Below, piece by piece: positions 37,461-60,366 of a DNA stretch of 64,000 nt; the first letter of the stretch is position 1, and each line of letters begins with the position of its first letter. Source of the stretch: Micrococcaceae bacterium Sec5.1 (lineage in GTDB: Bacteria; Actinomycetota; Actinomycetes; Actinomycetales; Micrococcaceae). The notes under the pieces are model-generated. The model made no database searches and was not told the origin of the DNA. It worked only from the letters and a program-made list of their open reading frames with translations. The stretch covers positions 3,162,001 through 3,226,000 of the forward strand of contig CP143430.1 of the NCBI GenBank assembly GCA_039636795.1. Direction: 5' to 3'. The position numbers and the translations under genes are program-made.

Positions 37461-39158
37461 ATGGTAAAAGTTCCAGTCTTGCGTTCAGGCAAGGTCGCGG
37501 CACCTCAGGGTCCGCACGACTTTTCCTTGGGCGCGGCGTTCCCTGCGAAACCTGGTGTTGTCGACGTCAATCCGCCGGTGTCTCCCTGGATTGACAAGTC
37601 CGTTGCTGCACAACGGGCTGAAAAGGCGGGACTGGCGGTGTTGAGGGCAGATGTGACCCTGGACCTCAAGCCGCCAGTCACCCACCGCAAACCCCGCAGT
37701 TCCTCCTCTTTGGCCGACCGGTCCGAGCGGTACAACCGCTCCGGCTGGACCAAGTCGCTCACCAATAGTCTTCGATGGGCAGACAGCGCCCTGGTAGCGG
37801 CAGCAGTCACGTCAGGATTCCTTCTGAACACTGATGGTCTTGCCGTTGCGGCAGGTGGCACGGAACATGAGCGGCACCTCATGCTCGGTTTCATACTTGG
37901 CATTGCCTGGCTCGGCGCACTTGAGGTCTATAGGACGCGGGATCCGAAAGTACTCGGGGTGGGGCCTGAAGAATACAAGCGTGTGTTGTCAGCGAGCCTG
38001 CGCGTTTTCGGCTTCCTGGGACTCGTGGCGGTCGTTTTCAGGCTGGAGTCCGCCAGCTCATTCGTCCTGGTGTCCTTGCCCGCGGGTTTGGTTGCACTGA
38101 CCGGCAGCCGGTGGATGTTCCGCCGTTGGCTGACGCGCGAAAAGTCACGTGGGCGCTGCCTCTCCCGTGCCATTGTGGTGGGGGAGCCGCAGGACGTCAG
38201 ATACGTCATCAAGCAAATCAACCGAAAGTCCGGTGCCGCGTACAACATCCTGGGGGCATGCCTTCCAGGAGCGCGGCGGGGTGCCGTCTTGGTGGTCGAT
38301 AACGTACGGGTTCCCGTCTTGTCATCGATTTATGGCATTGCCCACACTGTGCGCCAGACAGGCGCAAATGCGGTGATCGTTGCGGGCCCGGTCCCTGGCG
38401 GCAACCAGTTCATCCAGGAGTTGGGCTGGCGTTTGGAAGAAGATGCCGCCGAACTGGTCCTGGCGGCAACGCTGACCAACGTGGCCGGGCCGCGCATCCA
38501 CTGGCGCCCCGTTGAGGGCCTGCCCTTGATGCACGTCGATATTCCGCACTACTCCGGTGGCAAACACACGCTCAAGCGCCTGATGGACATTGTGGTCTCG
38601 GCTGCTGCTTTGCTTTGCCTGGCGCCACTGCTGGCTGTTTTGGCGCTGATAGTCACATTGGATAGCCCGGGTCCGGTGCTTTTCCGGCAGGAACGGATTG
38701 GCAGGCGAGGCACCACCTTTCAGATGCTGAAGTTCCGTTCCATGGTGGTTGATGCTGAAGCGCGGCTGGAAGAACTCAGAGGAAAGGACCAGGGCGCCGG
38801 TGTCCTCTTCAAGATGCGCGAGGACCCCCGCATCACCAAATGCGGCCGTTGGATGCGCAAGTACTCCCTGGACGAGCTACCGCAGTTCTGGAATGTGCTG
38901 GCCGGGAACATGAGCCTGGTAGGCCCGCGTCCGCCGCTCCTGCGCGAAGTCAGTGGTTACGAACGGCATACCCATCGCCGGCTGCTCATCAAGCCTGGAA
39001 TTACGGGCTTGTGGCAAATCAATGGTCGATCGGACCTTCCTTGGGATGAAGCCGTCCGCCTGGACCTCTATTACGTCGAAAACTGGTCGATAGCAGGCGA
39101 CCTCATGATCATGTGGCGGACCTTCCGGGCCATGATCCAGCCCTCCGGTGCCTACTGA
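37461..39158 (+). CDS. Polyprenyl-phosphate sugar-1-phosphate transferase (WcaJ/CpsE-like)
   Basis: A 565-residue membrane protein with a long N-terminal cytoplasmic tail (about 100 residues), four helices (110-220), a CoA-binding-like Rossmann domain (SRAIVVGEPQDVRYV) and the C-terminal catalytic domain from residue 370: RLMDIVVSAAALLCL (membrane hairpin), GPVLFRQERIGRRG, KFRSMVVDAE, SLDELPQFWNVLAGNMSLVGPRP and KPGITGLWQINGRS. It loads the first sugar phosphate on undecaprenyl phosphate and so starts the repeat unit of the polysaccharide. It is the first gene of the locus; GAAGAAGG precedes the ATG. Confidence 0.93.
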   Translation: MVKVPVLRSGKVAAPQGPHDFSLGAAFPAKPGVVDVNPPVSPWIDKSVAAQRAEKAGLAVLRADVTLDLKPPVTHRKPRSSSSLADRSERYNRSGWTKSLTNSLRWADSALVAAAVTSGFLLNTDGLAVAAGGTEHERHLMLGFILGIAWLGALEVYRTRDPKVLGVGPEEYKRVLSASLRVFGFLGLVAVVFRLESASSFVLVSLPAGLVALTGSRWMFRRWLTREKSRGRCLSRAIVVGEPQDVRYVIKQINRKSGAAYNILGACLPGARRGAVLVVDNVRVPVLSSIYGIAHTVRQTGANAVIVAGPVPGGNQFIQELGWRLEEDAAELVLAATLTNVAGPRIHWRPVEGLPLMHVDIPHYSGGKHTLKRLMDIVVSAAALLCLAPLLAVLALIVTLDSPGPVLFRQERIGRRGTTFQMLKFRSMVVDAEARLEELRGKDQGAGVLFKMREDPRITKCGRWMRKYSLDELPQFWNVLAGNMSLVGPRPPLLREVSGYERHTHRRLLIKPGITGLWQINGRSDLPWDEAVRLDLYYVENWSIAGDLMIMWRTFRAMIQPSGAY

Positions 39159-39261: not shown

Positions 39262-40371
39262 ATGAGCATAGGAACTATTCCATCAGGCCACCTTAACGGC
39301 CACGGGATGACCCCGAAGTTACGGATCGCCGTGGTCGGAGCAGGATATTGGGGCCCGAACCTCGCGAGGAACCTTAAAGCCAGCCCGGATTGGGAACTGG
39401 TGGCTATTTGCGATCTTGACGTGGAGCGCGGACTTCGGCTGGCCGAAACGGTAGGCGGCGTCGCCGTCGTCGAGTCTTTGGACGAACTTCTGGACACGTA
39501 TAACCTGGACGCCGTCGCCGTGGCGACCCCGGCGCACACGCATCACGGAGTAGTGATGACTGCATTGCGCGCCGGGATGCACGTCCTCGTCGAGAAGCCA
39601 CTCGCGGACAGCCGTGCCAAGGGCTTGGAAATGGTGGAGGAAGCCAAGGCCCGCGGCCTCGTCCTCATGGCAGACCATACCTATTGCTTTACTCCCGCGG
39701 TTTTGAAGATCCAGGAACTCGTCTCCAGTGGGGCATTGGGCGACATCTTGTATGTCGACTCCGTGCGCATCAACCTCGGACTTGTCCAGCCGGACGTCAA
39801 CGTGTTCTGGGATCTAGCACCCCACGATCTCTCGATCCTGGATTTCGTCCTGCCGGGAGGCCTGCACCCCACCGAGATCTCTGCACACGGCGCAGATCCG
39901 CTGGGTACGGGCCGTGACTGTGTAGGCCACCTGACCTTCGGCCTTCCGAACGACGCCATGGTGCACATCCACGTGAACTGGCTCAGTCCCACCAAAATCC
40001 GCCAGATGATCATTGGCGGCTCAAAGAGGACGCTCGTCTGGGACGACCTGAACCCCCAACAACGACTCAGCGTCTACGATCGCGGCGTCAGCCTGGAACA
40101 GCAGCCACGCTCAGCGGCGGACAAGAAGAACTCGGCCATCTCCTATCGCCTGGGCGACACATGGTCACCGGCGTTACAGGAACGCGAACCGTTGGGCCAG
40201 GTCGTCGCTGAGCTGGCCGGATCCATCCGGAATCACACGATACCGCGCACCAGCGGCGAATCCGGGCTCAGGGTCCTCTCAGTACTGGAAGCCGTCACCC
40301 AAAGCCTTGGAACAGACGGCCAGTCAACCATCGTTGTCGGCAACGAGGTAGCTCTCCAGGTCGCACAGTGA
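39262..40371 (+). CDS. Gfo/Idh/MocA-family sugar oxidoreductase
   Basis: A 369-residue NAD(P)-dependent enzyme. The Rossmann loop VVGAGYWGPNLARN is near residue 22, VEKPLADS gives the catalytic EKP motif near 112, and the C-terminal beta-sheet domain follows. Family members oxidise the 3-OH of a UDP-sugar or act on inositol-like substrates. With the DegT and acetyltransferase genes downstream a nucleotide-sugar 3-keto intermediate is likely (as for WbpB/WlbA). The gene is 103 bp after the initiating transferase; the next gene overlaps its stop (GTGA). ATG 39307 is an alternative start. Confidence 0.87.
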   Translation: MSIGTIPSGHLNGHGMTPKLRIAVVGAGYWGPNLARNLKASPDWELVAICDLDVERGLRLAETVGGVAVVESLDELLDTYNLDAVAVATPAHTHHGVVMTALRAGMHVLVEKPLADSRAKGLEMVEEAKARGLVLMADHTYCFTPAVLKIQELVSSGALGDILYVDSVRINLGLVQPDVNVFWDLAPHDLSILDFVLPGGLHPTEISAHGADPLGTGRDCVGHLTFGLPNDAMVHIHVNWLSPTKIRQMIIGGSKRTLVWDDLNPQQRLSVYDRGVSLEQQPRSAADKKNSAISYRLGDTWSPALQEREPLGQVVAELAGSIRNHTIPRTSGESGLRVLSVLEAVTQSLGTDGQSTIVVGNEVALQVAQ

Positions 40372-41387
40372 AGAAGTTGCTCGGCGCCAACGTCCTGGTC
40401 ACCGGAGGCGCCGGAACCATCGGATCCACCCTGGTTGACCAACTGGTCGACGCCGGCGTGGCGCACGTGGACGTCCTGGACAACCTCGTCAGGGGGCGCC
40501 GGGCCAACCTCAACGATGCGCTGGCTACCGGACTCGTACAGCTGGTGGAAGGTGACCTGCGGGACCGGGACCTGATCCACGACCTCACCAGGGGCAAAGA
40601 TCTGGTTTTCCATCAGGCTGCGATCCGCATCACCCAATGCGCCGAGGAACCACGGTTGGCTCTTGAGGTCCTGGTGGACGGAACCTTCAACGTGTTCGAA
40701 GCCGCCGTTGAGCACAACGTGGAAAAGGTCATCGCCGCGTCAAGCGCCTCGGTCTATGGAATGGCAGAAGAATTCCCCACCACCGAGCGGCACCACCACC
40801 ACAACAACGACACCTTTTATGGGGCCGCGAAATCGTTCAATGAGGGAATGGCGAGGAGCTTCCGGGCCATGTCCGGCCTGGACTACGTCCTCCTGAGGTA
40901 CTTCAACGTGTACGGACCCCGCATGGACGTCCACGGCCTCTATACGGAGGTACTTGTCCGATGGATGGAGCGGATAGTCGACGGCGTTCCGCCCCTGGTC
41001 TTCGGCAGCGGCCACCAGACAATGGACTTCATCCACACCGCCGACGTCGCAAGGGCCAACATCCTCGCAGCCGCAAGCGATGTCCGAGAGGGTGTCTATA
41101 ACGTGGCCAGCGGCACCGAAACCAGCCTGGCAGAACTCGCACAAACACTGCTCCGGGTCATGCAATCCCTGCTGCACCTTGACCACGGACCTGAACGCGC
41201 AGTCAACGGCGTCGCTCGCCGACTCGCAGACGTCACCGCCGCCAAACGGGACCTTGGCTTTGAAGCCGCAATAGAACTTGAAGATGGACTACGCTCACTC
41301 GTCACGTGGTGGCGTCCCCTCCGGGAAGAAATCGCAGCCTCCCGGCACCTGGCCCGGCCCGAAGCACCCTCAGTAGGTGCACGATGA
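40368..41387 (+). CDS. NAD-dependent nucleotide-sugar epimerase/dehydratase
   Basis: A 339-residue extended SDR with VTGGAGTIGSTLVDQL (residues about 11-26), VFHQAAIRI, Ser in ASSASVYG, and FYGAAKSFNEG with Tyr/Lys of YxxxK, then RYFNVYGPRMD. This resembles UDP-glucose/UDP-GlcNAc 4-epimerases and dTDP/UDP-sugar dehydratases; the exact reaction is open. GTG 40368 overlaps the upstream stop and the gene ends in an ATGA overlap with the aminotransferase, so it is the second of four tightly coupled sugar-modifying genes. Confidence 0.87.
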   Translation: MKKLLGANVLVTGGAGTIGSTLVDQLVDAGVAHVDVLDNLVRGRRANLNDALATGLVQLVEGDLRDRDLIHDLTRGKDLVFHQAAIRITQCAEEPRLALEVLVDGTFNVFEAAVEHNVEKVIAASSASVYGMAEEFPTTERHHHHNNDTFYGAAKSFNEGMARSFRAMSGLDYVLLRYFNVYGPRMDVHGLYTEVLVRWMERIVDGVPPLVFGSGHQTMDFIHTADVARANILAAASDVREGVYNVASGTETSLAELAQTLLRVMQSLLHLDHGPERAVNGVARRLADVTAAKRDLGFEAAIELEDGLRSLVTWWRPLREEIAASRHLARPEAPSVGAR

Positions 41388-42550
41388 CCACCTCCGAAAC
41401 TTCCCTGGCACGCATCGACGTGATGAAACCGTGGCTTGGGGAAGAAGAAGCCCAAGCAGTGGCCGAGGTCATCGCTTCCGGTTGGGTGGCCCAAGGCCCC
41501 AAAGTCAAGGAGTTCGAGGAAGCCTTCGCCCTGGAGCAACAGGCTGCTTTCGCCGTCGCCGTTTCCAGCTGCACCTCAGCCCTGCATCTGGCACTGGCTG
41601 TCGCAGGTGTTGGTCCGGGAGACGACGTCATTGTTCCCTCCTTCTCCTTCATTGCCACGGCAAACGCCCCCAGTTATGTAGGGGCCCAGGTGGTCTTTGC
41701 CGACGTCAACGTACTCACAGGTTGTGTCACCGCTGAAACGATTGCCGCCGCGTTGACGCCTGCTACACGGGCCGTCATAGCCGTGGACCAAGGCGGAGTA
41801 CCCGTGGATCTCGATCCCATCCGTGCCCTATGCGACCCCCTGGGCATCACCGTGGTGGAAGACGCAGCCTGCGGCATCGGTTCCCGCTACCGCGGCCACC
41901 CCGTAGGAGCCGGCGCCGAACTGGCGGCTTGGTCCTTCCACCCCCGCAAAATCCTCACCACAGGCGAGGGCGGGATGCTGTCCACGCCGCGGCAGGACCT
42001 CGCAGACCGGTCCCGCCGGCTCCGCGAACACGCAATGAGCGTCTCAGCCGCGGACCGTCATGCCAGCATCCTTGCCCCCGCCGAGGAATACCTCGAAATA
42101 GGGTTCAACTACCGCATGACCGACCTGCAGGCCGCCGTCGGGATCGTCCAGCTCGCCCGCCTGCACCAAGCAGTACAACGCAGGCGCGAACTGGCCGCCA
42201 ACTACGCACAGGCCTTCGCTGGTATCGAAGGCCTCCGTTTAGTGGACGACCCCGTATACGGAACCGGAAACTTCCAATCCTGCTGGTTGGAAGTAGGCAC
42301 GGCTTTCCCCCTGGGAAGAGACTCCCTGATGACCCGCCTGGCAGAGGACGGAATATCGGCACGACGCGGCATCATGGCCGCACACAGGCAACCTGCCTAC
42401 GCCCGGACAGCCAAGGGCGCGGTTTCGCTGGCAGCAACTGAATGGCTGACAGACCACACATTGATCCTGCCTCTGTACCACCAACTCACCCTGGGTGACC
42501 AGGTCCGGGTCATCGACTCAGTGCTCCGCGCGGCAGGACAGGGAAGATGA
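41384..42550 (+). CDS. DegT/DnrJ/EryC1/StrS-family sugar aminotransferase
   Basis: A 388-residue PLP enzyme. SSCTSALHLALAVAG is the cofactor phosphate loop, VVEDAACGIGS holds the Asp that pairs with the pyridine nitrogen, and WSFHPRKILTTGEGG contains the Schiff-base lysine. It transfers an amino group from glutamate to a keto-sugar nucleotide. ATG 41384 overlaps the upstream TGA; in-frame codons back to 41306 are inside the epimerase gene. It fits a role after the oxidoreductase/epimerase and before the acetyltransferase. Confidence 0.92.
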   Translation: MTTSETSLARIDVMKPWLGEEEAQAVAEVIASGWVAQGPKVKEFEEAFALEQQAAFAVAVSSCTSALHLALAVAGVGPGDDVIVPSFSFIATANAPSYVGAQVVFADVNVLTGCVTAETIAAALTPATRAVIAVDQGGVPVDLDPIRALCDPLGITVVEDAACGIGSRYRGHPVGAGAELAAWSFHPRKILTTGEGGMLSTPRQDLADRSRRLREHAMSVSAADRHASILAPAEEYLEIGFNYRMTDLQAAVGIVQLARLHQAVQRRRELAANYAQAFAGIEGLRLVDDPVYGTGNFQSCWLEVGTAFPLGRDSLMTRLAEDGISARRGIMAAHRQPAYARTAKGAVSLAATEWLTDHTLILPLYHQLTLGDQVRVIDSVLRAAGQGR

Positions 42551-43209
42551 CCGAGCTCCTCCTCATCGCCGCCAGCGGACTCGCCCGCGAGGTCCTGGCC
42601 ATGGTCCGCAACACCGGACAATACGACGTCATCGGAATCCTGGACGACGACGAGGACAAACTCGGGCGCGTGGTGGACGGCGCCCACGTACTGGGCCCCA
42701 TCCGCGATGCCCTGACCTTCCCACACGCCATGCTGCTGGTCTGTATTGGATCCGGCCGAGGACGCGAAAGCGTCGTCATGCGGTTACGCACCCTGGGCCT
42801 TGCGGAAGACCGCTACGCAACGGCGATCGACTCATCTGTACATCCGCCGGAGGGATGCAGGATCGGCCTTGGCAGCATTCTCCTGGCGAACGTCACCATG
42901 ACAGCCTCCGTCACAGTGGGAAGCCACGTAGTAGCCATGCCCGGCGTCACGCTCACGCACGACGACGTCGTCAGCGACTTCGCCACCCTGGCCGCAGGCG
43001 TATCCCTCGGCGGGAACGTCCACATCGGCCGCGCAGCCTACATCGGCATGAACGCCAGCGTCCGCGAGCGCCGCACCGTCGGCGCCGGCGCAACCATCGG
43101 CATGGGAGCGGCCGTGCTTACTGATGTTCCCGCCGAGGAAACCTGGGCCGGGGTGCCCGCACGCGTTATCCGCCGCGGATTTTCTCCTGAGCTGGAGGAT
43201 GCCTTGTGA
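42547..43209 (+). CDS. PglD/NeuD-like sugar O- or N-acetyltransferase
   Basis: A 220-residue protein: an N-terminal Rossmann-like domain (LLLIAASGLAREVLAM, ILDDDEDKLG) and a C-terminal left-handed beta-helix of hexapeptide repeats (GCRIGLGSILLANVTM, NVHIGRAAYIGMNASV). The catalytic His lies in TLTHDDVVSD. PglD N-acetylates a UDP-4-amino-sugar; NeuD O-acetylates sialic acid. After a DegT aminotransferase, N-acetylation of the new amino sugar is the better guess. The ATG overlaps the upstream stop (ATGA). Confidence 0.88.
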   Translation: MTELLLIAASGLAREVLAMVRNTGQYDVIGILDDDEDKLGRVVDGAHVLGPIRDALTFPHAMLLVCIGSGRGRESVVMRLRTLGLAEDRYATAIDSSVHPPEGCRIGLGSILLANVTMTASVTVGSHVVAMPGVTLTHDDVVSDFATLAAGVSLGGNVHIGRAAYIGMNASVRERRTVGAGATIGMGAAVLTDVPAEETWAGVPARVIRRGFSPELEDAL

Positions 43210-43273: not shown

Positions 43274-44767
43274 ATGTCCGAAGCGACGAGCTCGTTTATC
43301 AAAGGGGGTGTCGGCCGCCGAGCCATCAAGGGGGCGGCTTGGAGCGGTGTGAACACGTTGATGATGAAATTCGGAACGCTTGCCATCATGGTATTCGTCG
43401 TCCGAATCGTCTCACCGAACGATTTTGGTGTGTTCGCCGTTGCCTTGGTTGTCCATGCCGTCGTGTCCAGCTTTGGGGAACTGGGGCTTTCCTCGTGTAT
43501 CTCCCGCCGGGATCTAGATCCGGAGCGAGTCGGGCCCACCGTTGCCACCCTGGCGTGGGTAAGCAGCTTTGCGCTGGCCGCCATAACTGCTTTGTCCGCG
43601 GAGCCACTAGCGACCGCTCTGGGATCAATACATGCGGCCAATCCCATCCGCGTCCTATCCATCTCCATATTCCTGGGTGGACTGTTCACCGTTCCGGGCG
43701 CCTTACTCGTGCGTGAATTTCGTCAAGGCAGGATCCTGCTGGCAAGCGCAGTTGCCTTCCTCCCCATGAACGGATTGCTACTTCTCCTCGCGCTTAATGG
43801 CGACGGGGCTATGGCATTTGCATGGTCTCGAGTCGTCGGGCAATTGATTAGCGGGCTGGTCATGGTCGCGAGTGTGAAGCGACAGTATTGGCCTCGAATT
43901 AATGTCCACGAAATCCTACCTTTGCTCAGGTTTGGGCTGCCCCTTGCTGGCGCCAACTTGTTGACTTATGTGTTCTTAAATGCAGACTTTGCCATCATCG
44001 GCCGATCGCTGGGAACGGAACAACTGGGGATCTATACTTTGGCATTCACTATCGCCTCCTGGCCGACCTCAATACTCAGTTCCACAATCAACAGCGTCGC
44101 CATGCCCGCATTCTCGGCTGCAAGTTCTGACAGCGAGGACTTGACAAGGCTGCTGCGGAGTTCGACGACAATAGTGGCTCTGCTTGCATTTCCGATCGCA
44201 GCCCTTTCCATGGTGTTGGCGACGCCACTGCTCATTGTCGTGTATGGCGACAAATGGTCGCCCGCCGCGCCCGTGCTATCGGTGCTTGCCGTCTATGGTG
44301 CGCTATTCTCGATTTCGCTTCTGCTCTCTAACCTGCTTGTAGGAACAGGTAGGTCGGGAGTCGTGTTTCTTGTCCAAGGGGCGTCTATATTGGTCCTTGT
44401 CCCAGCCGTCGCGTGGGGCGTATCCGTCGTGGGCCTGGTGGGGGCTGCTTATGCACACATTGGCGTCGTGCTTTTAGCTCTTATTTTGTATGTACTGTTG
44501 CTGCGCAACTCCCTGGCACCTGGTCGAGGGCTCATCGCTGCAACTTGGTGGCCCTTGGCTACGGCAGCAGGAGCTGGTACGGCTGCAAGCCTGGCTGCCG
44601 GGCTCTTCGATGAGCCCGTCGCCAGCCTTGCAGTTGGGGGAGTGGTTGGACTGCTTGTGTGCTTCGCCATGGCCTTGCCCTATCTTCATGCGTATGCCCC
44701 AACGGCGCTTACCTCTCGCTTGCAGCGGGCCGTGCACGCGATCGGTGGTGTGTGGCGTGTCAGATGA
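43274..44767 (+). CDS. Wzx-type oligosaccharide flippase
   Basis: A 497-residue integral membrane protein with about 14 helices of the MATE/MOP flippase group (polysaccharide export). Early segments read IKGAAWSGVNTLMMKFG and VVRIVSPNDFGVFAVALVV, typical of Wzx proteins. It would flip the lipid-linked repeat unit to the outer face of the membrane. GGGGG lies about 8 bases before the ATG. From here the base composition drifts to more A+T. Its end overlaps the next gene by 11 bp. Confidence 0.9.
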   Translation: MSEATSSFIKGGVGRRAIKGAAWSGVNTLMMKFGTLAIMVFVVRIVSPNDFGVFAVALVVHAVVSSFGELGLSSCISRRDLDPERVGPTVATLAWVSSFALAAITALSAEPLATALGSIHAANPIRVLSISIFLGGLFTVPGALLVREFRQGRILLASAVAFLPMNGLLLLLALNGDGAMAFAWSRVVGQLISGLVMVASVKRQYWPRINVHEILPLLRFGLPLAGANLLTYVFLNADFAIIGRSLGTEQLGIYTLAFTIASWPTSILSSTINSVAMPAFSAASSDSEDLTRLLRSSTTIVALLAFPIAALSMVLATPLLIVVYGDKWSPAAPVLSVLAVYGALFSISLLLSNLLVGTGRSGVVFLVQGASILVLVPAVAWGVSVVGLVGAAYAHIGVVLLALILYVLLLRNSLAPGRGLIAATWWPLATAAGAGTAASLAAGLFDEPVASLAVGGVVGLLVCFAMALPYLHAYAPTALTSRLQRAVHAIGGVWRVR

Positions 44768-46958
44768 CCAACTGCAGGGCCGTCCCCATATGCTATTTTT
44801 CCGGCGAGTAAAGCCGGGCTTGGCACCGTTCCTGTCGCAGCATCTCGACGATCAAATCCGGGTACTCGGCCATTTCTATGATGTCAAGATCATCAGCCGT
44901 GACTGTGATTATGCTCAGGAGTGTGAACTTTTCGAACCAGAAATCACCGTCTTTGAGTCGGGCGTCTACTCGTACAATCAGCGCATAAGGAATACAAATG
45001 CCCACGCCGAAATACCCAAGCTGGGCTTTCTTCACTCAGACGCCTACGATCTCGCACGCGCAGTCTTTATTTCCAAGATGGCGGAATGGGGGATCGAAAC
45101 GTTCTTTACGACGTCGACGTCAATGGCGGAGTACACCCCGGAGATCGCGCAAAATCTCTTTGTGTGGCCCAATTCGATAGACCCCCACACGTTTCGAGAT
45201 TTCGGTCTGGCCAAAAACATACCTGTACTCGTTACGGGCAGTCAGGAGCGGCACTACCCGTGGCGGAATGCCGTCAATCGCGCCCTCGCCGAGAGGTTTC
45301 CCACCATGACTATGCCCCATTTTGGTTGGGGAAACGGTACCGAACGCCTGGTCGTGGGAACGGACTATGCCAAATTGCTAAGTGCGAGCTATTTTGTACC
45401 GGCATGCGGCAGCATGGCTAGAGAAGTGGTGCGAAAGCAGCTCGAGATTCCTGCCGCGGGCGCCTGTTTAGTTACGGAACGGTCGACTCGACTTGAAGCG
45501 TTCGGATTTTCGGACATGGTTAATTGCGTCTTCGCGGATCAAGCCAACGTGGTAGAAAAGCTAGACGATCTCTGGCGTGATCAGGACCGATTAAAAGGCA
45601 TCATCACAGAAGGCCACAACCTTGTTCATTCCCATCATGCTGACGCAAACCGAAGTCAGGTTCGGGAGTGGCTTGAACTTTATCGGCAACGGACCCCTGG
45701 CCAGAAGATTATCCAGGAAACGCCGTGCTCCTCGCTAACCCTTGTTGACAAGAGCGCCTCGGCCCCCATCCTAGTCGGCCCTGGACTGGACCGTGTCCAA
45801 CTTACGGACGGTTGGCGGCTTTTGAGATCACATATGCTCGACGATGCTGAACGCGAGTTTCTTAAATGTTTGAACTACTACTTCATTCCCGAGGCAATCC
45901 CGGGACTTGTCTTCACCAGCCTCGCCAAAGGTGATGCCCATGCGGCACTGGGGTGGGCGACTCAGGCGCTCAAACGATCCATGCAAGACACTGGTGCCAT
46001 TGATCCTGATCCCGTCCTTTGGGCCTGCCGTATCCGGGCCCTCATTTGCGCCGGTGAAGTGTCTGCTGCGATCTCCTCGGCTAAAAGGTACCCGCATCTA
46101 AAGCACATCGAACTGGACAGGGTACGACTTGCCGTCAGCGAGTTGTTGTCGTCGACAGATTACGCTTCGCCGGATGTTCCCATCTACGGATGGGAGCCAC
46201 GCCCATCGATTGCACCTGTTCCAGTCTTAGATCTGCATGCATGGAAACAGGAGTTCGAACAATTTTTGGCGAGCTGTGGGCAGTTTGAGTCTTCCCCCGG
46301 AGAAGCCGGCAGCGGATTCCAAATCAGAAGGTCCTTTAGGGCAAAGCGACTGCCACTCTTGCAACAGCTGTTTCCAGCCGCCAAGCGCTCCTTCGCTGGC
46401 CTGCTTGACTCGGGAACCATCGTTCGACTGCGGATGGCTTTGTCCCCACTAAAGCAGCTCTTAGTGGGCACGGCATGGTCAAGGAGGATCAAGGAGACGG
46501 TCGGACGGGAGAGGCTTTCCCGGGCCATTGTCATCGGCCGACTAGACGGAACAGATAGGCGCGCACTGGAGTGGGGGCGGAGTCTAAATCCCTGGTTGCC
46601 TCTTCTCGATTTTTCAGACTCTTTTAGCCAGGCGGATGCTCGCGGCTTACTGAGGGGTGGTGGGAGGTACGTGCTGCTTTTGGCAGACTTTCAATTGGGC
46701 CCGTTGATCGCCCCGGACGCGGCCGAGATATCAAAACTCGCTGGTTTCGGTCTGGTACTAATCCGCGGAACCACGACCCCAGATGGCTATAGGACGTTTT
46801 CCGGTCTGCTTGAATCCCGATGTTTCACGGTCGTGGCCCATGACCCCTCCAAGGGAACAGCAGTGCTCAGACAATCTGGCCTTGTTGACCATGGCCGGGC
46901 CACGCGCCCAGCGGCCGATTCCGACATGGCGGCAAACACCGATGGAAGGAGCGAATGA
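44757..46958 (+). CDS. CgeB-like glycosyltransferase with TPR-like and unknown C-terminal regions
   Basis: A 733-residue modular protein. Residues 1-310 resemble CgeB/GT-B spore-coat-type glycosyltransferases (ETFFTTSTSMAEYTP, NSIDPHTF, CLVTERSTRLEAFGF, the last being the nucleotide-sugar loop). Residues about 355-480 look like TPR helices (DDAEREFLKCLNYY, GWATQALKRSM). The last 150 residues (RAIVIGRLDGTDRRALEWG onward) have a Rossmann-like pattern I cannot assign. GTG 44757 or ATG 44790 may be the start. It overlaps the flippase gene and the next gene (ATGA), so it is part of the coupled run. Confidence 0.72.
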   Translation: MSDDQLQGRPHMLFFRRVKPGLAPFLSQHLDDQIRVLGHFYDVKIISRDCDYAQECELFEPEITVFESGVYSYNQRIRNTNAHAEIPKLGFLHSDAYDLARAVFISKMAEWGIETFFTTSTSMAEYTPEIAQNLFVWPNSIDPHTFRDFGLAKNIPVLVTGSQERHYPWRNAVNRALAERFPTMTMPHFGWGNGTERLVVGTDYAKLLSASYFVPACGSMAREVVRKQLEIPAAGACLVTERSTRLEAFGFSDMVNCVFADQANVVEKLDDLWRDQDRLKGIITEGHNLVHSHHADANRSQVREWLELYRQRTPGQKIIQETPCSSLTLVDKSASAPILVGPGLDRVQLTDGWRLLRSHMLDDAEREFLKCLNYYFIPEAIPGLVFTSLAKGDAHAALGWATQALKRSMQDTGAIDPDPVLWACRIRALICAGEVSAAISSAKRYPHLKHIELDRVRLAVSELLSSTDYASPDVPIYGWEPRPSIAPVPVLDLHAWKQEFEQFLASCGQFESSPGEAGSGFQIRRSFRAKRLPLLQQLFPAAKRSFAGLLDSGTIVRLRMALSPLKQLLVGTAWSRRIKETVGRERLSRAIVIGRLDGTDRRALEWGRSLNPWLPLLDFSDSFSQADARGLLRGGGRYVLLLADFQLGPLIAPDAAEISKLAGFGLVLIRGTTTPDGYRTFSGLLESRCFTVVAHDPSKGTAVLRQSGLVDHGRATRPAADSDMAANTDGRSE

Positions 46959-49030
46959 TGGACACTATTGTGTATTTGTCCGGCACGCGCTGGAGCAGCC
47001 TTCCCGGGACCGACAAGATGCTTGCACGATCGCTAGCCAGACATAATCGTGTGCTATGGATCGATCATCCCGTACCGATTCACAGCTACAAGGATGTCCG
47101 AGAGCATTTTGGGAGAAGCCTCTTGGGGATCCCCGAAGCTGTGGCACCTGGAATAGCCAGGTTACGTTTGCCGGCCCTGCCCGGCGTCGGGAAGCCTGTC
47201 TCGCGTTCTGCAACAGAGATTCTCGCGAGTCGCTGTGTGGAGTCCGCGTTGGCGAGGACAGAAGGGCGCATCGCGGGCGTCGTCAATTCGTCTCCCATTT
47301 TGCGCTTTCCCGCGCACACCGGGGGCGGGATCCGCCTCCTGCATTTGACCGATGACTGGCTCGCAGGGGCCAAGCTAATGGGCTTCGCCCCCATCTATTT
47401 ACGTCGGGTGCTTCAAGCGAACATCGAATCAGCAGACGTAATCTCGGCGGTCTCAGAGGACCTTGCCTCCAAGATCTCCCATAGCTCGGGCAGGCCTATT
47501 GAGGTGGTGCCCAATGGCTGCAGCACCTCAACCCTTGCTCTGGGTTTGCGGCGTCGTCAAGTCGTTGCCCTTGTTGGTCAGCTGAACGAGCGACTGGATC
47601 TCGACGTCCTGGAATCGGTAGTTGCCTCAGACGTTGCCATGCTCGTTATTGGCCCCAGGGCTGACGGTGATCCAGTCGCTGGCTCAAGACTGGACGCCCT
47701 GTTGTCACGGCCCAACGTGGACTGGAGGGGACCTATGCCACAAGAAGAGGTTCAGCGATTGTTACAAACCGTCTCGGTCGGCATCACCCCTTATGCTGAC
47801 ACCGAGTTCAACCGATCGAGTTTTCCACTGAAGACGCTTGAGTACCTTTCAGCAGGTCTGCAAGTCGTGGCTACCGATTTGCCGTCAGCCAGATGGATTG
47901 GATCCTCGGCTGTGTCCATAGCTGCAAACCCATCCGACTTCGCAAGGCAGGTCACAGACTCCCTTCGTCAGCCAGTTACTGCTGCGCGTCGACAGGAAAT
48001 TGCTGCAACTGTTCTCAAACACTCCTGGGACACACGGGCAGACTGCATTGAGAAGTTGTTGTCTGCTAAAAGGGAGGCAGCTTCTGCAACCCATGGGTCG
48101 TCCACGCCCCTGATGTTCGAAACTGGCCGCGTCATGTCAGCGACAGAACCTAATCCCAATGTCGACCACGTCCTTCTCACTCGATTCAACCTGCCTTCCA
48201 AGGGCTTCGAAAGCATCGTGCGCGCCAAGGACGGATGGCTGCGAAACCGAATACAACTGTTTGAGACCTACTGCCTTCCTTCAGTTATTGCACAGAGCCA
48301 AAAGAACTTCCATTGGATCATTTATCTGGATCCACAAAGTCCTGCCTGGCTGGTCCAACGCATCGGCGAACTTAGCGTCGGCGGCCGATTTCATCCCATC
48401 TATCGCGAAGAGGTCGACGCATTAGATTTACTGAAGGACATCAGAGATGTTACCGGCCAGAGCGCAAAGCACCTCCTGACAACAAATCTCGACAATGATG
48501 ATGGCTTGTCATCCGACTTTGTGGCGCGGGTACAGGCGATCGAGGCTCCCGAGTTGCCGTCCGTAGTATTTTTTACGGCGGGTCTAGTGAAATGCAACAA
48601 TTCCCTTTTCCTCCGAACCGATCGAAGAAACGCTTTCTGTTCTGTCCTTAGCGATTGGAATGAACCCACTACTTGCTGGTCCTCGTGGCATGACCAGATA
48701 GGCAAGACCATGCCGTCAATACGTGTCGAAGGGACGCCAGGATGGCTTCAGGTGGTTCATGGATTGAATGTCAGCAATAGAACACGCGGAAGGCTGGTAT
48801 CTCCAACGAAATTCATCCATGCCTTCCCGGGACTTATGCTTGATGTACAGGAACCCGACCGATTTATGCTCTTCCATGATTTCATAATTGGGCGACCACG
48901 ACGAATACTCCGCGAAGCATGCCGAGCTGCGCTTAAATCCGTCACCATCGCTTTACTTGGAAGATCGGGAATCGACAGAGTAAAAGTTGTTGCTGCCTGT
49001 ATCCGTCGGGAGGTTGGAAAATGCAACTGA
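46955..49030 (+). CDS. Fused glycosyltransferase: GT4-like plus PF11316-like rhamnosyltransferase
   Basis: A 691-residue fusion. Residues 1-385 form a GT-B enzyme (HLTDDWLAG, VPNGCS, FPLKTLEYLSAGLQVVATD, similar to TuaH/GT4). Residues about 402-690 resemble the 'putative rhamnosyl transferase' family (PF11316): LLTRFNLP, RIQLFETYCLPSV, WIIYLDPQSPAWL, NLDNDDGLSSDF (acidic metal motif) and WLQVVHGLNVSN. The second half is clearly paralogous to the stand-alone gene at 56183. Two sugars could be added in sequence by one polypeptide. Ribosome site AAGGAG; ATGA overlap with the upstream gene. Confidence 0.83.
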   Translation: MMDTIVYLSGTRWSSLPGTDKMLARSLARHNRVLWIDHPVPIHSYKDVREHFGRSLLGIPEAVAPGIARLRLPALPGVGKPVSRSATEILASRCVESALARTEGRIAGVVNSSPILRFPAHTGGGIRLLHLTDDWLAGAKLMGFAPIYLRRVLQANIESADVISAVSEDLASKISHSSGRPIEVVPNGCSTSTLALGLRRRQVVALVGQLNERLDLDVLESVVASDVAMLVIGPRADGDPVAGSRLDALLSRPNVDWRGPMPQEEVQRLLQTVSVGITPYADTEFNRSSFPLKTLEYLSAGLQVVATDLPSARWIGSSAVSIAANPSDFARQVTDSLRQPVTAARRQEIAATVLKHSWDTRADCIEKLLSAKREAASATHGSSTPLMFETGRVMSATEPNPNVDHVLLTRFNLPSKGFESIVRAKDGWLRNRIQLFETYCLPSVIAQSQKNFHWIIYLDPQSPAWLVQRIGELSVGGRFHPIYREEVDALDLLKDIRDVTGQSAKHLLTTNLDNDDGLSSDFVARVQAIEAPELPSVVFFTAGLVKCNNSLFLRTDRRNAFCSVLSDWNEPTTCWSSWHDQIGKTMPSIRVEGTPGWLQVVHGLNVSNRTRGRLVSPTKFIHAFPGLMLDVQEPDRFMLFHDFIIGRPRRILREACRAALKSVTIALLGRSGIDRVKVVAACIRREVGKCN

Positions 49031-53117: not shown

Positions 53118-55871
53118 CTACTGCCTGCTGCTCTCATCGCGTTCCCAGGAAGCGCTCGCTCTCCCCGTAAAGAATGCTCCATACCGGCCAATAACAGCGA
53201 AAGCTGCATAGACCAGGGCATCGAATGCACTGACCGGCCCGCGTACTGAACCAGTCAGCTCCTGCAAAGTCCGCGCCGTCGAGGAGGCTGCGTCAGGTGA
53301 CGTCGACTGCGGGGCCCGTGATGGCCTTTGCTGCTGGTTTCCCCGGTAAGTGCGCCGAAGAATCGCGAGCAATGCCCTCGATGAGCGGGGAGTCCTCACA
53401 ACGACAGGGTCGGTCTCCAGAACAGCCTTTTCGCCGGGTTGAAACAAGCCGTCCACGTAGTAGTCGTCACCGGTCAGACCAGGAAATTCTCCGAGCCGGT
53501 CATGACCATTTGCGTTCATTGCGTAGACACCCGCCCCCCACAATCCTTGCGAGTTTCCAGGAATCCGGTTCCGGGCCCTGTAATAGGCCCTGACCAACGC
53601 GGAGGCTCCGATGGTGTCGTACCGGAAAGCTGGCCGTGCAGCCAGAAGGGACCCGGCCTCAAGAGCCTTGAAAACGGCTTGGAGTGCCTCGGGGTTGAGC
53701 TCTACATCAGCATCAAGATACAGTCGCGGCCACAGTTCCGTGGCGCCGTCCGCGGCGTTGAGCGCTGCCGTTTTGGACGCTTCCTCGACGTGCAGGACTT
53801 TAATGCCCCGATACTGTGAGGCAATGGATTCCGTATCATCGGTGCAGCCATTGCATGCCACGATGACGTCCACAGTTCCCGCGCTGATGACTTCCTTCAA
53901 AGAATCCAGTGTCCGGCCAATCACTTTTCCCTCATTGTGCGCCGGAATAATGACGGCTCCGGTTGGAAGGCCCTTCGAAAAATCAGGGGATCGGGTGGCA
54001 TGAGGCAACGTCTGCCATAGACGTTTACTCAAAAGGGCCCTCGCTGCTTCCCGGTGGCCAGGCTTGTTCATGCGTGCCATCTCAGCGGCGCAAACCGCGG
54101 CCCGGAAAAGCAGAGCCCTGCTCCGCCCGAGATGTTTGGCTGCATAGCGAACACGATTCACGGACAGAAGCGCCGTCAGCTGGGGCGAGGTACCCGAACC
54201 CCCGCCTTCATGCCACATCCTTGCTGTGGGCTCGAACCAAATTGATTTCCCTGCTTCGCGGATTCGATGGCAATAATCTGTCTCTTCCGAATACAGGAAA
54301 AATTGCTCGTCCCATTCCCCAACGGTCTGGGCTGCCTCGTCGCTTATCAAGAGAGCCGCGCCTGTGGCCCATTCGATGCGATGAGCGTATTGATAGCCCT
54401 CCACGTCGAAGTCCATTTCAGAGAGCCAGGCGGGCCGACGGCGCAGATGGCTGCCCAGCGCGGCATCGCCCAGGGCCCGCATCACGCTCGGCTCGCGGCG
54501 CAGGGAGGGGTAGACACTGCCATCATTTTCCAGCAGGACCGGAACAACCGCCCCAGCGTGGGACAGGCTCATTCTTCGGCGCAATGCTGCCACCGCCCCT
54601 GGCTCCACCCGCAGGTCCGGATTCAAGATGAGGTACGCGTCGGCGGGCCCCGCCACGCGCATCGCAGCGTTGATGCCACCCGCGTAGCCGAGATTTCCGC
54701 CCGTTGGCAAAGAGATGACATCCGGATGCTTCGCCAGCTCGGTCATGGTCCGATCGTCAGGAGAATTGTCAGCCACCACTACTTTCATGGTTTGCTCGCC
54801 CGTCATGGCCCTCAGGCTCGAAATCAGGGGCCCGACGTCGTCGGCATTGTTGTAGGTAACAACTATGGCTGCTACCTCTGCCCTCACCGCCGCCGGCAGG
54901 AAGGGCTGCGGGGCCTGATGGTTGGCCCGGGCCGGGGCATTTATCGAATGGTCCGGGTTCCGGCCCATCGGCAGTGCGGTGGGAGGAATGTTTGCAGCGC
55001 TGACCTGACGCAACTTCAGGTAGGCCTCGGGTCCATCCACCAGATACCGGCGAGCAAGCCTGCGCGGCTCCAGCAGGAGTCGCCAAGCCCATTCAAAGCC
55101 GTGGGAACTGATCCAGGATGGGGCGCGCCGGATTCGACCAGCGAGGAAATCGACAACAGCACCGAATGCCAGCAGAATCTTGGCTCCCGTGAGGCGACCA
55201 TACTTGCTGACCCATAATTCCTGGCGGGGTTTGCCCATGCCAACCACCAGGATGTCCGGAGCATTGGCCGCTATCTGTGCGGCGAGCTCCAACGAAGCCT
55301 GCTCATCGCTGATCACGGACCTTTCCGGGGCCCACCAGCCTGCGATCGCCAGATCCGGACGCTCTACTGCGAACCTACTGCGGATAAGCTCCTGGGCCTG
55401 CTCCGTCCCACCGAGGAATCCCACGCTCAGGCCGCGGCGTTCGGCTTCGTCCAGCAGAGGCTCCACAAGATCACTTCCCGCCAATCGTGGCCACGGCTGG
55501 TCGGTGAGACGACGGGCTTGGGCGACCAGGGGGGCTCCGTCCAACAACGTCAGCCACTCCACGGACGCGTGCTCCGCCATGGCGCCCACCCACCTGCTTC
55601 CGGCCCCAAAGTGCAGGATATGGTCCAGGTTTGCAGAACAAACGCCAAGAGGTGGCGCCCCCACTGAGGTTGCCCTGTCCATAATTTCCCGCAGGGCGCC
55701 GTCAAACTCCAAGAGCTTCACAGGGACTCCACCCAAACTCACCCACAGATCCTGCCCGGCGGGGGAAACTATTGGCGGTCTGGAACCATGCCCTCTGGCT
55801 TCTCCCGGGCGAAACTTCGCAGAAATATGGCGGTTGGCGACCCGGGAGGGCGCAGTTTCTTGGTGCAGCAT
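53118..55871 (-). CDS. Triple glycosyltransferase fusion: WecG/TagA + GT2 + GT2
   Basis: A 917-residue protein with three catalytic modules. Residues about 40-285 are a WecG/TagA/CpsF-type transferase (GVCSANLDHIL, GFLGGTEQ, VVGMGKPRQELWVSKY). Residues 332-600 are a GT2 of the rhamnosyltransferase type (VAAIVVTYNNADDV, GNLGYAGGINAAM, ILNPDLRV, SEETDYCHRI). Residues 637-860 are a second GT2 (GAVIIPAHNEGKVIGRT, VIVACNGCTDDT, YLDADVELN, LTGDDYYVDG). A single helix may anchor it near the C-terminus (about 880-905). Stand-alone versions of each are usual. ATG 55871 has GGAG 6 bases upstream. It is convergent with the rightward operon. Confidence 0.88.
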   Translation of the reverse strand: MLHQETAPSRVANRHISAKFRPGEARGHGSRPPIVSPAGQDLWVSLGGVPVKLLEFDGALREIMDRATSVGAPPLGVCSANLDHILHFGAGSRWVGAMAEHASVEWLTLLDGAPLVAQARRLTDQPWPRLAGSDLVEPLLDEAERRGLSVGFLGGTEQAQELIRSRFAVERPDLAIAGWWAPERSVISDEQASLELAAQIAANAPDILVVGMGKPRQELWVSKYGRLTGAKILLAFGAVVDFLAGRIRRAPSWISSHGFEWAWRLLLEPRRLARRYLVDGPEAYLKLRQVSAANIPPTALPMGRNPDHSINAPARANHQAPQPFLPAAVRAEVAAIVVTYNNADDVGPLISSLRAMTGEQTMKVVVADNSPDDRTMTELAKHPDVISLPTGGNLGYAGGINAAMRVAGPADAYLILNPDLRVEPGAVAALRRRMSLSHAGAVVPVLLENDGSVYPSLRREPSVMRALGDAALGSHLRRRPAWLSEMDFDVEGYQYAHRIEWATGAALLISDEAAQTVGEWDEQFFLYSEETDYCHRIREAGKSIWFEPTARMWHEGGGSGTSPQLTALLSVNRVRYAAKHLGRSRALLFRAAVCAAEMARMNKPGHREAARALLSKRLWQTLPHATRSPDFSKGLPTGAVIIPAHNEGKVIGRTLDSLKEVISAGTVDVIVACNGCTDDTESIASQYRGIKVLHVEEASKTAALNAADGATELWPRLYLDADVELNPEALQAVFKALEAGSLLAARPAFRYDTIGASALVRAYYRARNRIPGNSQGLWGAGVYAMNANGHDRLGEFPGLTGDDYYVDGLFQPGEKAVLETDPVVVRTPRSSRALLAILRRTYRGNQQQRPSRAPQSTSPDAASSTARTLQELTGSVRGPVSAFDALVYAAFAVIGRYGAFFTGRASASWERDESSRQ

Positions 55872-56182
55872 TCTCGGCTCCAGGCTCGATGATCCAACTC
55901 ACGGCACAAAAATGTGCCGGCGATCCAAGTCGCTGCACTTCCTGGATCGCCGATGCCGGACGGCGGGTGCCGCCCGAACTTACTTCCTTGAGTTGTCTCC
56001 CGGCCCTACTGTTTCGAGGCTGCCGTAGGGCTACTTTAGGACGATTTGCCTGCGTACACCAGAGCGCGCGTTTGACTCATGGGAAGGTCCGCGGCCGCAG
56101 GGTATTGCCTGCCGGCCCCTGCCGGGAGAGGATGCGTTATGTCGACACCGAGGGACCAACCCTGACCACGTAGAGGACGGAC
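55872..56182. promoter_or_regulatory. 311-bp divergent region with two inverted repeats
   Basis: The region lies between the fusion gene (-) and the rhamnosyltransferase gene (+) and should carry both promoters. CGGCACA (55902-55908) pairs with TGTGCCG (55913-55919) around AAAA. A second perfect 10-bp repeat (55918-55927 with 55943-55952) overlaps it by two bases. Either may be a protein-binding site or an RNA hairpin in the leader of the fusion gene. No gene is visible. Confidence 0.5.
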
Positions 56183-57043
56183 ATGGGCAGCGAGATCACA
56201 GACTGTTTGGGGGGCTCGGCAACGCATTTTGTTCTGACACGCTTCAATGTCCGCAGCTTTTATCACAAGGCAGAGCCCACAGACGAATGGCTTCGCGAGC
56301 GCCTTCAACTCTTTGAAATGTACTGCATGCCGTGCTTCCGAAATCAAACAGAAACCCGGTTTACTTGGCTGGTTTTCCTTGACTCCCTGTCACCAGTGTG
56401 GTTGAGGCAGGAGATTGACAAACTATCCCAAGGCGTCTTTCGGGCCGTTTACGTTGAGGGTGCGTTCTCGCAGGAATTCCTTAGCCGGACAATTGGCGAG
56501 CTTAGTGCCACTCCCTACGTCATCACTACGCGGGTAGACAATGACGACGCAGTGGCAAACGACTTTATTGAGACAATTCAAAGTTGTTTCACGGAACAGG
56601 ACAAAAACTTCGTTAATCTCGTGAACGGCGCGCAGTATGCCGGGCGGAAACTCTATGTCCGCCCATACACGATGAATCCATTTTCAAGCTTGATAGAACG
56701 GGTTACGAACCACCGTCCGGCCACCGTGTTCGTTGAACATCATTACCGGATCGATGCATATGCCCCCGTCCTGAACGTGCGGACCACACACCCGATGTGG
56801 TTGCAGGTGATTCACGGCGGTAACGTCCTCAACGAGGTCGTGGGCCTGCGGACGAGTGCCCAACGCATTGCACCGCACTTTTCTGTTTCCCTCGACGTGG
56901 ATGATCGATTATTCAGCCGCAGCGTGGACAGGGTCCTGGGCGCCTGGAAAATTCTCCTGCGCCTGCTCCGAAAGCCATCGCGGCTTAGGGATCTGACCAA
57001 GACCCTCCTGGCGCGGAAAGCCGGCAGCCCCGTCTCAAAGTGA
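56183..57043 (+). CDS. PF11316-like putative rhamnosyltransferase, stand-alone
   Basis: A 286-residue glycosyltransferase: FVLTRFNVRSFYHK, RLQLFEMYCMPCFRNQT, WLVFLDSLSPVWL, TRVDNDDAVANDF (metal-binding acidic motif) and MWLQVIHGGNVLNE. These line up in order with the second half of the fusion at 46955-49030. The dTDP-rhamnose genes alongside support a rhamnosyl donor, though donor use is inferred. GAGGAC precedes the ATG. The last 9 bp overlap the convergent rmlCD gene. Confidence 0.84.
   Translation: MGSEITDCLGGSATHFVLTRFNVRSFYHKAEPTDEWLRERLQLFEMYCMPCFRNQTETRFTWLVFLDSLSPVWLRQEIDKLSQGVFRAVYVEGAFSQEFLSRTIGELSATPYVITTRVDNDDAVANDFIETIQSCFTEQDKNFVNLVNGAQYAGRKLYVRPYTMNPFSSLIERVTNHRPATVFVEHHYRIDAYAPVLNVRTTHPMWLQVIHGGNVLNEVVGLRTSAQRIAPHFSVSLDVDDRLFSRSVDRVLGAWKILLRLLRKPSRLRDLTKTLLARKAGSPVSK

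Positions 57044-58447: not shown

Positions 58448-60366
<1,919 letters not shown>

Follow-up and report, generated by a model that had tools for sequence, protein, structure and literature searches.

What is a protein that joins three glycosyltransferases in one chain doing in a polysaccharide locus, and how much does the joining matter? The question is raised by a 64,000-nucleotide stretch of the genome of Micrococcaceae bacterium Sec5.1 (contig CP143430.1, positions 3,162,001 to 3,226,000), referred to here as the window, which is a Wzx/Wzy polysaccharide locus and encodes a 917-residue protein with one GT26 module and two GT2 modules, numbered 1 to 3 from the N-terminus. The reading that we favour, and hold to be fairly probable, is that of a membrane-associated, multi-step glycosyltransferase of the Wzx/Wzy pathway, which would work at the cytoplasmic face, with a polyprenyl glycosylphosphotransferase (PGT) placing sugar 1, module 1 placing sugar 2, and modules 2 and 3 placing further sugars.

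The frame of this three-glycosyltransferase gene runs without interruption from an ATG at 55871 to a stop ending at 53118. The coordinates 53118..55871 given in an earlier note on this DNA are thus exact, and the strand, absent from that note, is the minus strand. The note had described three glycosyltransferases in one chain, and each module, taken singly, has its own Pfam match: module 1 (residues 40-290) scored 159.7 bits against PF03808 (cut-off 27.4), while modules 2 (329-606) and 3 (631-917) scored 42.3 and 57.8 bits, respectively, against PF00535 (cut-off 23.3). The motifs that it had named were located at residues 211-220 (GMGKPRQELW), 417-419 (NPD), and 720-722 (DAD). An AlphaFold2 model of the whole protein has a mean predicted local distance difference test (pLDDT) score of 87.5, with values below 50 over at least three residues only at 1-36 and 909-917; among ten-residue blocks, pLDDT falls to 55-63 in residues 301-320 of the linker that connects module 1 to module 2, and to 55 at 851-860. 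The predicted template modelling (pTM) score of 0.73 does not by itself settle module-to-module contacts. A consensus scan of positions 55700-56300 found neither a promoter nor a terminator.

The fusion is shared widely. A homolog search returned 774 proteins at an E value of 1e-30 or better among 7995 scored candidates, and all 120 of the homologs listed carry PF03808, PF00535, and PF13641 tags. Their lengths fall between 844 and 952 amino acids in 118 cases, the remaining two being 678 and 799; the organism names given include Arthrobacter, Paenarthrobacter, Pseudarthrobacter, and Specibacter, with one labelled Bacillus sp., and a protein name from the source, where there is one, mostly refers to the first domain. 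In a sample of 395 genomes from the window's family, searched at 1e-60 or better, 85 genomes matched (about a fifth of the sample, from 12 of its 32 genera), and 71 of these, the window included, encode all three modules as a single frame. Fusion is, therefore, the usual form in the family wherever the gene occurs, so the statement that each module is usually a separate gene holds mostly outside the family and fails within it. Among the other matching genomes, seven carry a 1-2 fusion next to a separate module-3 gene, two have modules 1-2 with module 3 elsewhere, three have modules 2 and 3 with module 1 not in the fetched stretch, and two have module 1 only. At four loci (L040, L127, L129, and L132), modules 2 and 3 are fused and no WecG module lies within the fetched 20 kb.

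These counts also decide whether an assembly or frameshift error has joined separate genes, which the earlier note had named as its possible refutation. Close relatives do have split versions, as such an error would lead one to expect, but with one frame in 71 of 85 matching genomes and all three domains in every homolog listed we rejected this explanation and give it practically no weight. By contrast, in locus L046 (genome G053), which looks poorly assembled, the PGT, oxidoreductase, SDR, aminotransferase, and three-glycosyltransferase genes all contain frameshifts.

To judge the individual modules, we aligned 81 of 121 sequences (the window protein and the 120 homologs listed). The checked catalytic residues are invariant in 81/81, with single exceptions only at R129, D532, and D802; judged by these residues, there is no sign of a dead module in the window protein. 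In module 1, Asp111, Gln217, Glu218, Arg264, and Arg271 are found in all 81 sequences and Arg129 in 80; by alignment, they correspond to Asp65, Gln167, Glu168, Arg214, Arg221, and Arg83 of TagA, respectively. In the accessible part of a study of TagA, Asp65 is put forward as the base, and three arginines of the C-terminal appendage (214, 221, and 224) reach into the active site (PMC6493773). The counterpart of the last of these, residue 274, is variable (Arg in 37/81), and the adjoining Arg275 is invariant. Ser79, also invariant (81/81), may take the place of TagA Thr37, an assignment made by motif and not by alignment. Module 1 further shows the TagA fold and passes the TIGR00696 cut-off (106.8 bits against 69), and it stays under the equivalog cut-offs, which would point to a specific donor and acceptor, for TarA (56.8 of 350 bits), Escherichia coli WecG (PRK03692; 63.1 of 323), and EpsA (113.9 of 500). 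Elsewhere in the same genome, outside the window, there is a second WecG-family match (G000:C1:3682864-3683382, in a 265-codon frame).

In module 2, the NPD motif and Glu529/Glu530 are invariant, and Asp532 is replaced by Glu in one sequence. In module 3, which overlaps structurally with hyaluronan synthases, the DAD motif and Asp803 are invariant, and Asp802 is likewise Glu in one sequence. The C-terminal helices of module 3, as well as the TagA-like appendage of module 1, would be plausible sites of contact with the membrane. Module 3 ends in the tail WERDESSR, in which Trp909, Asp912, and Arg916 are present in 81/81 sequences and the pattern W-x-R-D in 98 of 105 module-3 frames; this strong conservation holds whether module 3 is fused or split off, and also in several proteins in which it stands alone, and the tail is a possible candidate for a docking motif.

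How much the covalent link matters can be gauged from the split versions. In 13 of 93 fetched loci with either the fusion or an adjacent split, module 3 is a separate gene directly after fused modules 1 and 2. In all 13, the frame of module 3 is offset by an identical step, and the two genes overlap in every one of them, namely by ATGA in eight, by TGATG in three, by TAGTG in one (L117), and, in the thirteenth (L038), through a GTG candidate start 13 bases ahead of the end of the stop; starts were predicted by reading, and the one closest to the stop was chosen. In trees from quick searches, with long rows flagged, the split rows fall among fused ones (module 2 tree and joined-module tree), the split label requiring three changes on these two trees and four on the module 1 and module 3 trees. 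Because of this nesting, it appears that the chain was split repeatedly, or was split and later joined again, the overlap of the genes being retained. The window and L056 themselves adjoin split rows on the joined-module tree, on which L037 has no firm place, so that the window's fused state fits either two fissions or one fission followed by a re-fusion.

This pattern suggests that a physical link is not strictly needed and that co-translation has been kept. We infer that retention of the overlap would reflect selection for equal dosage or for co-assembly, with a covalent link that may be helpful yet dispensable. The proposal that a single chain acts jointly is, accordingly, borne out as regards the chain, which is a real assembly of three glycosyltransferases, whereas the linkage itself seems unneeded where module 3 is separate and overlapping.

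Outside the family, the modules are arranged differently. We scored the two best candidates per genome in an order sample (396 genomes, 1e-40) and a class sample (394 genomes, 1e-50), which overlap. The former gave 56 matching genomes, of which 11 belong to the window's family, and none of the 45 that belong to other families has a single match spanning all three modules; the latter gave 37, two from the family and 35 from others. The sole 1-2-3 fusion seen outside the family in these samples is in G870 (L159), from another family of the class. It has no firm place on the joined-module tree beyond falling outside the family clade, which fits transfer, a fusion of greater age, or an independent second fusion equally well. 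Among a few loci read more closely, G693 encodes the modules one per gene in the order 1, 2, 3, the first two genes overlapping by ATGA; in G721, module 1 is followed by a 2-3 fusion; and in G080, modules 1 and 2 adjoin while module 3 lies next to the PGT. Two further genomes have other orders: G719 (L158, 1883-5110) encodes a 1,076-residue fusion in the order module 3, module 2, GT4 domain, the frame of which shares an ATGA overlap with the end of the preceding, unfused module-1 gene, and G077 (L051, 10051-11634) has a 3-1 fusion in a 602-codon frame with both catalytic motifs. In view of these two arrangements, ordered action, which had been read from the order of the modules, is not secured, and a strict collinear assembly line is unsupported. 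Recurrent fusion in the combinations 2-3, 3-2-GT4, and 3-1 does, on the other hand, fit modules that are steps of one pathway.

We consider a multi-step role at a lipid-linked acceptor likely because the checked catalytic residues are invariant in the aligned homologs. In the sequence of events that we propose, the PGT (37461) would load the first sugar, probably an N-acetylated amino sugar from the 39262-43209 cassette, on undecaprenyl phosphate. Module 1 would add the second sugar, since WecG-family enzymes are thought, according to the accessible part of one source, to add a second sugar onto a monosaccharide linked to undecaprenyl diphosphate (PMC11340318). Modules 2 and 3 would each add one sugar, possibly L-rhamnose in at least one case, and the unit would then be completed by the other glycosyltransferases of the locus, flipped by Wzx, and polymerised by Wzy. 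The inferred parts of this scheme are which sugars are added, whether module 2 or module 3 acts first, the anchoring to the membrane by the TagA-like appendage, and the hand-over of substrate. Rhamnose as a donor is suggested mainly by the rml genes and, in addition, by a weak family match; the rhamnosyltransferase label that the earlier note had attached to module 2 is not supported by the curated model, the TIGR01556 score being 38.1 bits, over a best stretch of 58 residues, against a curated cut-off of 200.55, and we do not regard the module as a certified rhamnosyltransferase.

The surroundings of the gene are in keeping with a Wzx/Wzy locus, the order being PGT, oxidoreductase, SDR, DegT, acetyltransferase, Wzx, glycosyltransferases, Wzy, the three-glycosyltransferase gene, and dTDP-rhamnose genes (Table 1). 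We take the SDR and the nucleotidylyltransferase of the rhamnose cluster to be RmlB-like and RmlA-like, respectively. The window also encodes another fused enzyme (46955-49030), with a GT4-type domain and a PF11316 putative rhamnosyl transferase.

Table 1. Coordinates of the three-module gene, its parts, and other genes in the window
Position	Strand	Feature	Family match or basis
53118..55871	-	Three-module glycosyltransferase, 917 amino acids, single open reading frame	Frame reading
55002..55754	-	Module 1 (residues 40-290), WecG/TagA/CpsF (GT26), catalytic Asp111, C-terminal appendage arginines	
54888..55001	-	Linker, modules 1 to 2 (residues 291-328), low model confidence in part	pLDDT
54054..54887	-	Module 2 (residues 329-606), GT2, NPD 417-419, E529/E530	PF00535
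53121..53981	-	Module 3 (residues 631-917), GT2, DAD 720-722, D803	PF00535
53124..53147	-	Conserved C-terminal tail WERDESSR (residues 909-916), low model confidence	
37461..39158	+	PGT, presumed first step	PF02397; TIGR03025 416.1 bits, cut-off 295.55
39262..40371	+	Gfo/Idh/MocA oxidoreductase, amino-sugar cassette	
40368..41387	+	SDR sugar epimerase/dehydratase, cassette	Below every equivalog cut-off
41474..42550	+	DegT-type aminotransferase, cassette	Below every equivalog cut-off
42547..43209	+	NeuD/PglD/VioB-type sugar N-acetyltransferase	TIGR03570 179.7, cut-off 160.8
43274..44767	+	Wzx-type flippase	PF13440
50389..51966	+	Wzy-type polymerase (true start may be internal to the open reading frame)	PF04932
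56183..57043	+	Putative rhamnosyl transferase, between rmlCD and the three-module gene	PF11316
57035..58444	-	RmlC-RmlD fusion in one frame, dTDP-rhamnose supply	PF00908, PF04321
58448..59497	-	RmlB-like SDR	PF16363, position in rml cluster
59500..60366	+	RmlA-like nucleotidylyltransferase	

The three-glycosyltransferase gene keeps company with the amino-sugar cassette. The acetyltransferase, searched for at 1e-50 in the 395 family genomes and found in 105, is present in 80 of the 85 genomes with a three-glycosyltransferase match vs 25 of the 310 others (Fisher p 1.5e-54, uncorrected for relatedness), and the starts of the two matches lie 4.4-19.5 kb apart in the 26 genomes compared. Of the 25 acetyltransferase-only loci, 20 were fetched, and none of these 20 stretches has a module match above 55 bits. 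Among the 98 fetched loci that contain modules 1 and 2, 23 have rmlCD upstream and in the same orientation. With the window as the reference, we also compared conservation across the 93 other loci that have either the fusion or an adjacent split: median identity is 54-59% for the modules, 35% for Wzy (78 loci), and 36% for Wzx (47 loci), and module 2 is closer to its counterpart in the window than Wzy is in 78/78 loci and than Wzx is in 46/47. The amino-sugar genes are conserved more still, module 2 surpassing the acetyltransferase in 3/26 loci, the SDR in 0/12, and the oxidoreductase in 0/10. Higher conservation of module 2 than of Wzx and Wzy is what one would expect if the early part is common to the strains and the rest varies. 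An extension of our reading, which we consider less likely than not, is that the protein acts as a core-glycan synthase, the PGT and the three-module chain together making a family-shared, lipid-linked tetrasaccharide as the base for a strain-specific variable part.

Several observations weigh against the proposed multi-step route. The acetyltransferase and the three-glycosyltransferase gene do not always go together, with 25 of 105 acetyltransferase genomes having no three-glycosyltransferase match and 5 of 85 the reverse, and rmlCD is not in the fetched stretch of 75 of the 98 loci. The window's further glycosyltransferases may take over some of the steps, and module 2 misses the rhamnosyltransferase cut-off. 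In other families, loci L051 and L052 contain modules 1 and 3 with a PGT and without a close module 2, and the only GT2 of L050 is just 31% identical to module 2; L053, too, has modules 1 and 3, but no PGT in its 6.5 kb. On such arrangements, module 3 may act before module 2, perhaps directly after module 1.

Other functions can be envisaged for the same chain. The TagA family membership of module 1 and the conservation of the gene above Wzx and Wzy would also suit a short conserved linkage unit, a reducing-end primer that joins the polymer to the cell wall without being part of every repeat, similar to the ManNAc-GlcNAc unit of wall teichoic acid. In the Wzy pathway, the primer sugar is on every flipped unit, and a once-per-chain linker would require a second lipid-linked acceptor system, for which no search was made; we consider this function unlikely. 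That the protein is a processive polymerase of the chondroitin synthase (K4CP) or WbdA type, with modules alternating on a growing chain to make the backbone, is quite improbable. K4CP (PDB 2z86, 2z87) is the top Foldseek match, but TM-scores to the six K4CP chains among the matches listed are only 0.18-0.30 and the domain arrangement is not shared; the locus itself has Wzx and Wzy; and a WecG-family module acting on a lipid-linked monosaccharide, as suggested in the accessible part of the source cited above (PMC11340318), would be expected to act once per unit. It is more improbable still that one module, most likely 2 or 3, is inactive in transfer and has become a scaffold. This would accommodate the four loci whose fetched 20 kb contain modules 2 and 3 but not module 1, as well as two of the 71 fused genomes, namely G437 (L086), with a TAG within module 3, and G201 (L123), in which the match stops at residue 836; it is opposed by the invariance (81/81) of NPD, Glu529/Glu530, DAD, and Asp803, with Asp532 and Asp802 becoming Glu once each.

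If the multi-step reading, with its extension to a shared core, is true, a group of genera of soil bacteria would share a core of four sugars made by two proteins, and this compact pathway to a lipid-linked oligosaccharide would lend itself to reconstitution in vitro. The interest lies mainly in the natural series of fused, split, and reordered forms: fusions in varied orders (1-2-3, 2-3, 3-1, and 3-2-GT4), together with overlapping re-splits, amount to a natural experiment on the value of enzyme linkage, and the fused, split-overlapping, reordered, and separate members of the series could be used to test channelling against mere equal dosage.

Among known systems, TagA/TarA (GT26; PDB 7mpk and 5wb4, Thermoanaerobacter italicus numbering) is a single module, to which the window protein adds two GT2 modules. 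K4CP has two glycosyltransferase domains in tandem, but it is an alternating polymerase and has no GT26 module. For a GT26-GT2-GT2 chain in a Wzx/Wzy locus, we found no publication in the literature searched, which largely did not cover subscription papers. Several glycosyltransferase modules in one chain, as in the window protein, are also found in the O-antigen polymerase WbdA, which, in the accessible part of its source, has two mannosyltransferase modules in Klebsiella O3 and three in O5, one per linkage type, and in the further multi-module chains WbbB and WbbM (PMC11231755). Unlike the window protein, with its GT26 module and Wzx/Wzy locus, WbdA makes its polymer from GDP-mannose for export by an ABC transporter. 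Klebsiella O7 ORF6 resembles the window protein in its tandem GT2 modules, both dTDP-Rha-dependent, but, as far as the same partial source describes it, carries a coiled coil and a methyltransferase-kinase and no GT26 module (PMC11231755). WsaE from the S-layer glycan system of Geobacillus stearothermophilus is, again in the accessible part of its source, a trifunctional enzyme that builds a rhamnan with two glycosyltransferase domains, and differs in having a methyltransferase as its third domain (PMC2943079). These partial sources place both the Klebsiella proteins and WsaE in pathways that use an ABC transporter (PMC11231755, PMC2943079). Multi-module glycosyltransferase chains are, in summary, already known, and GT26-GT2-GT2 is a new domain combination among them.
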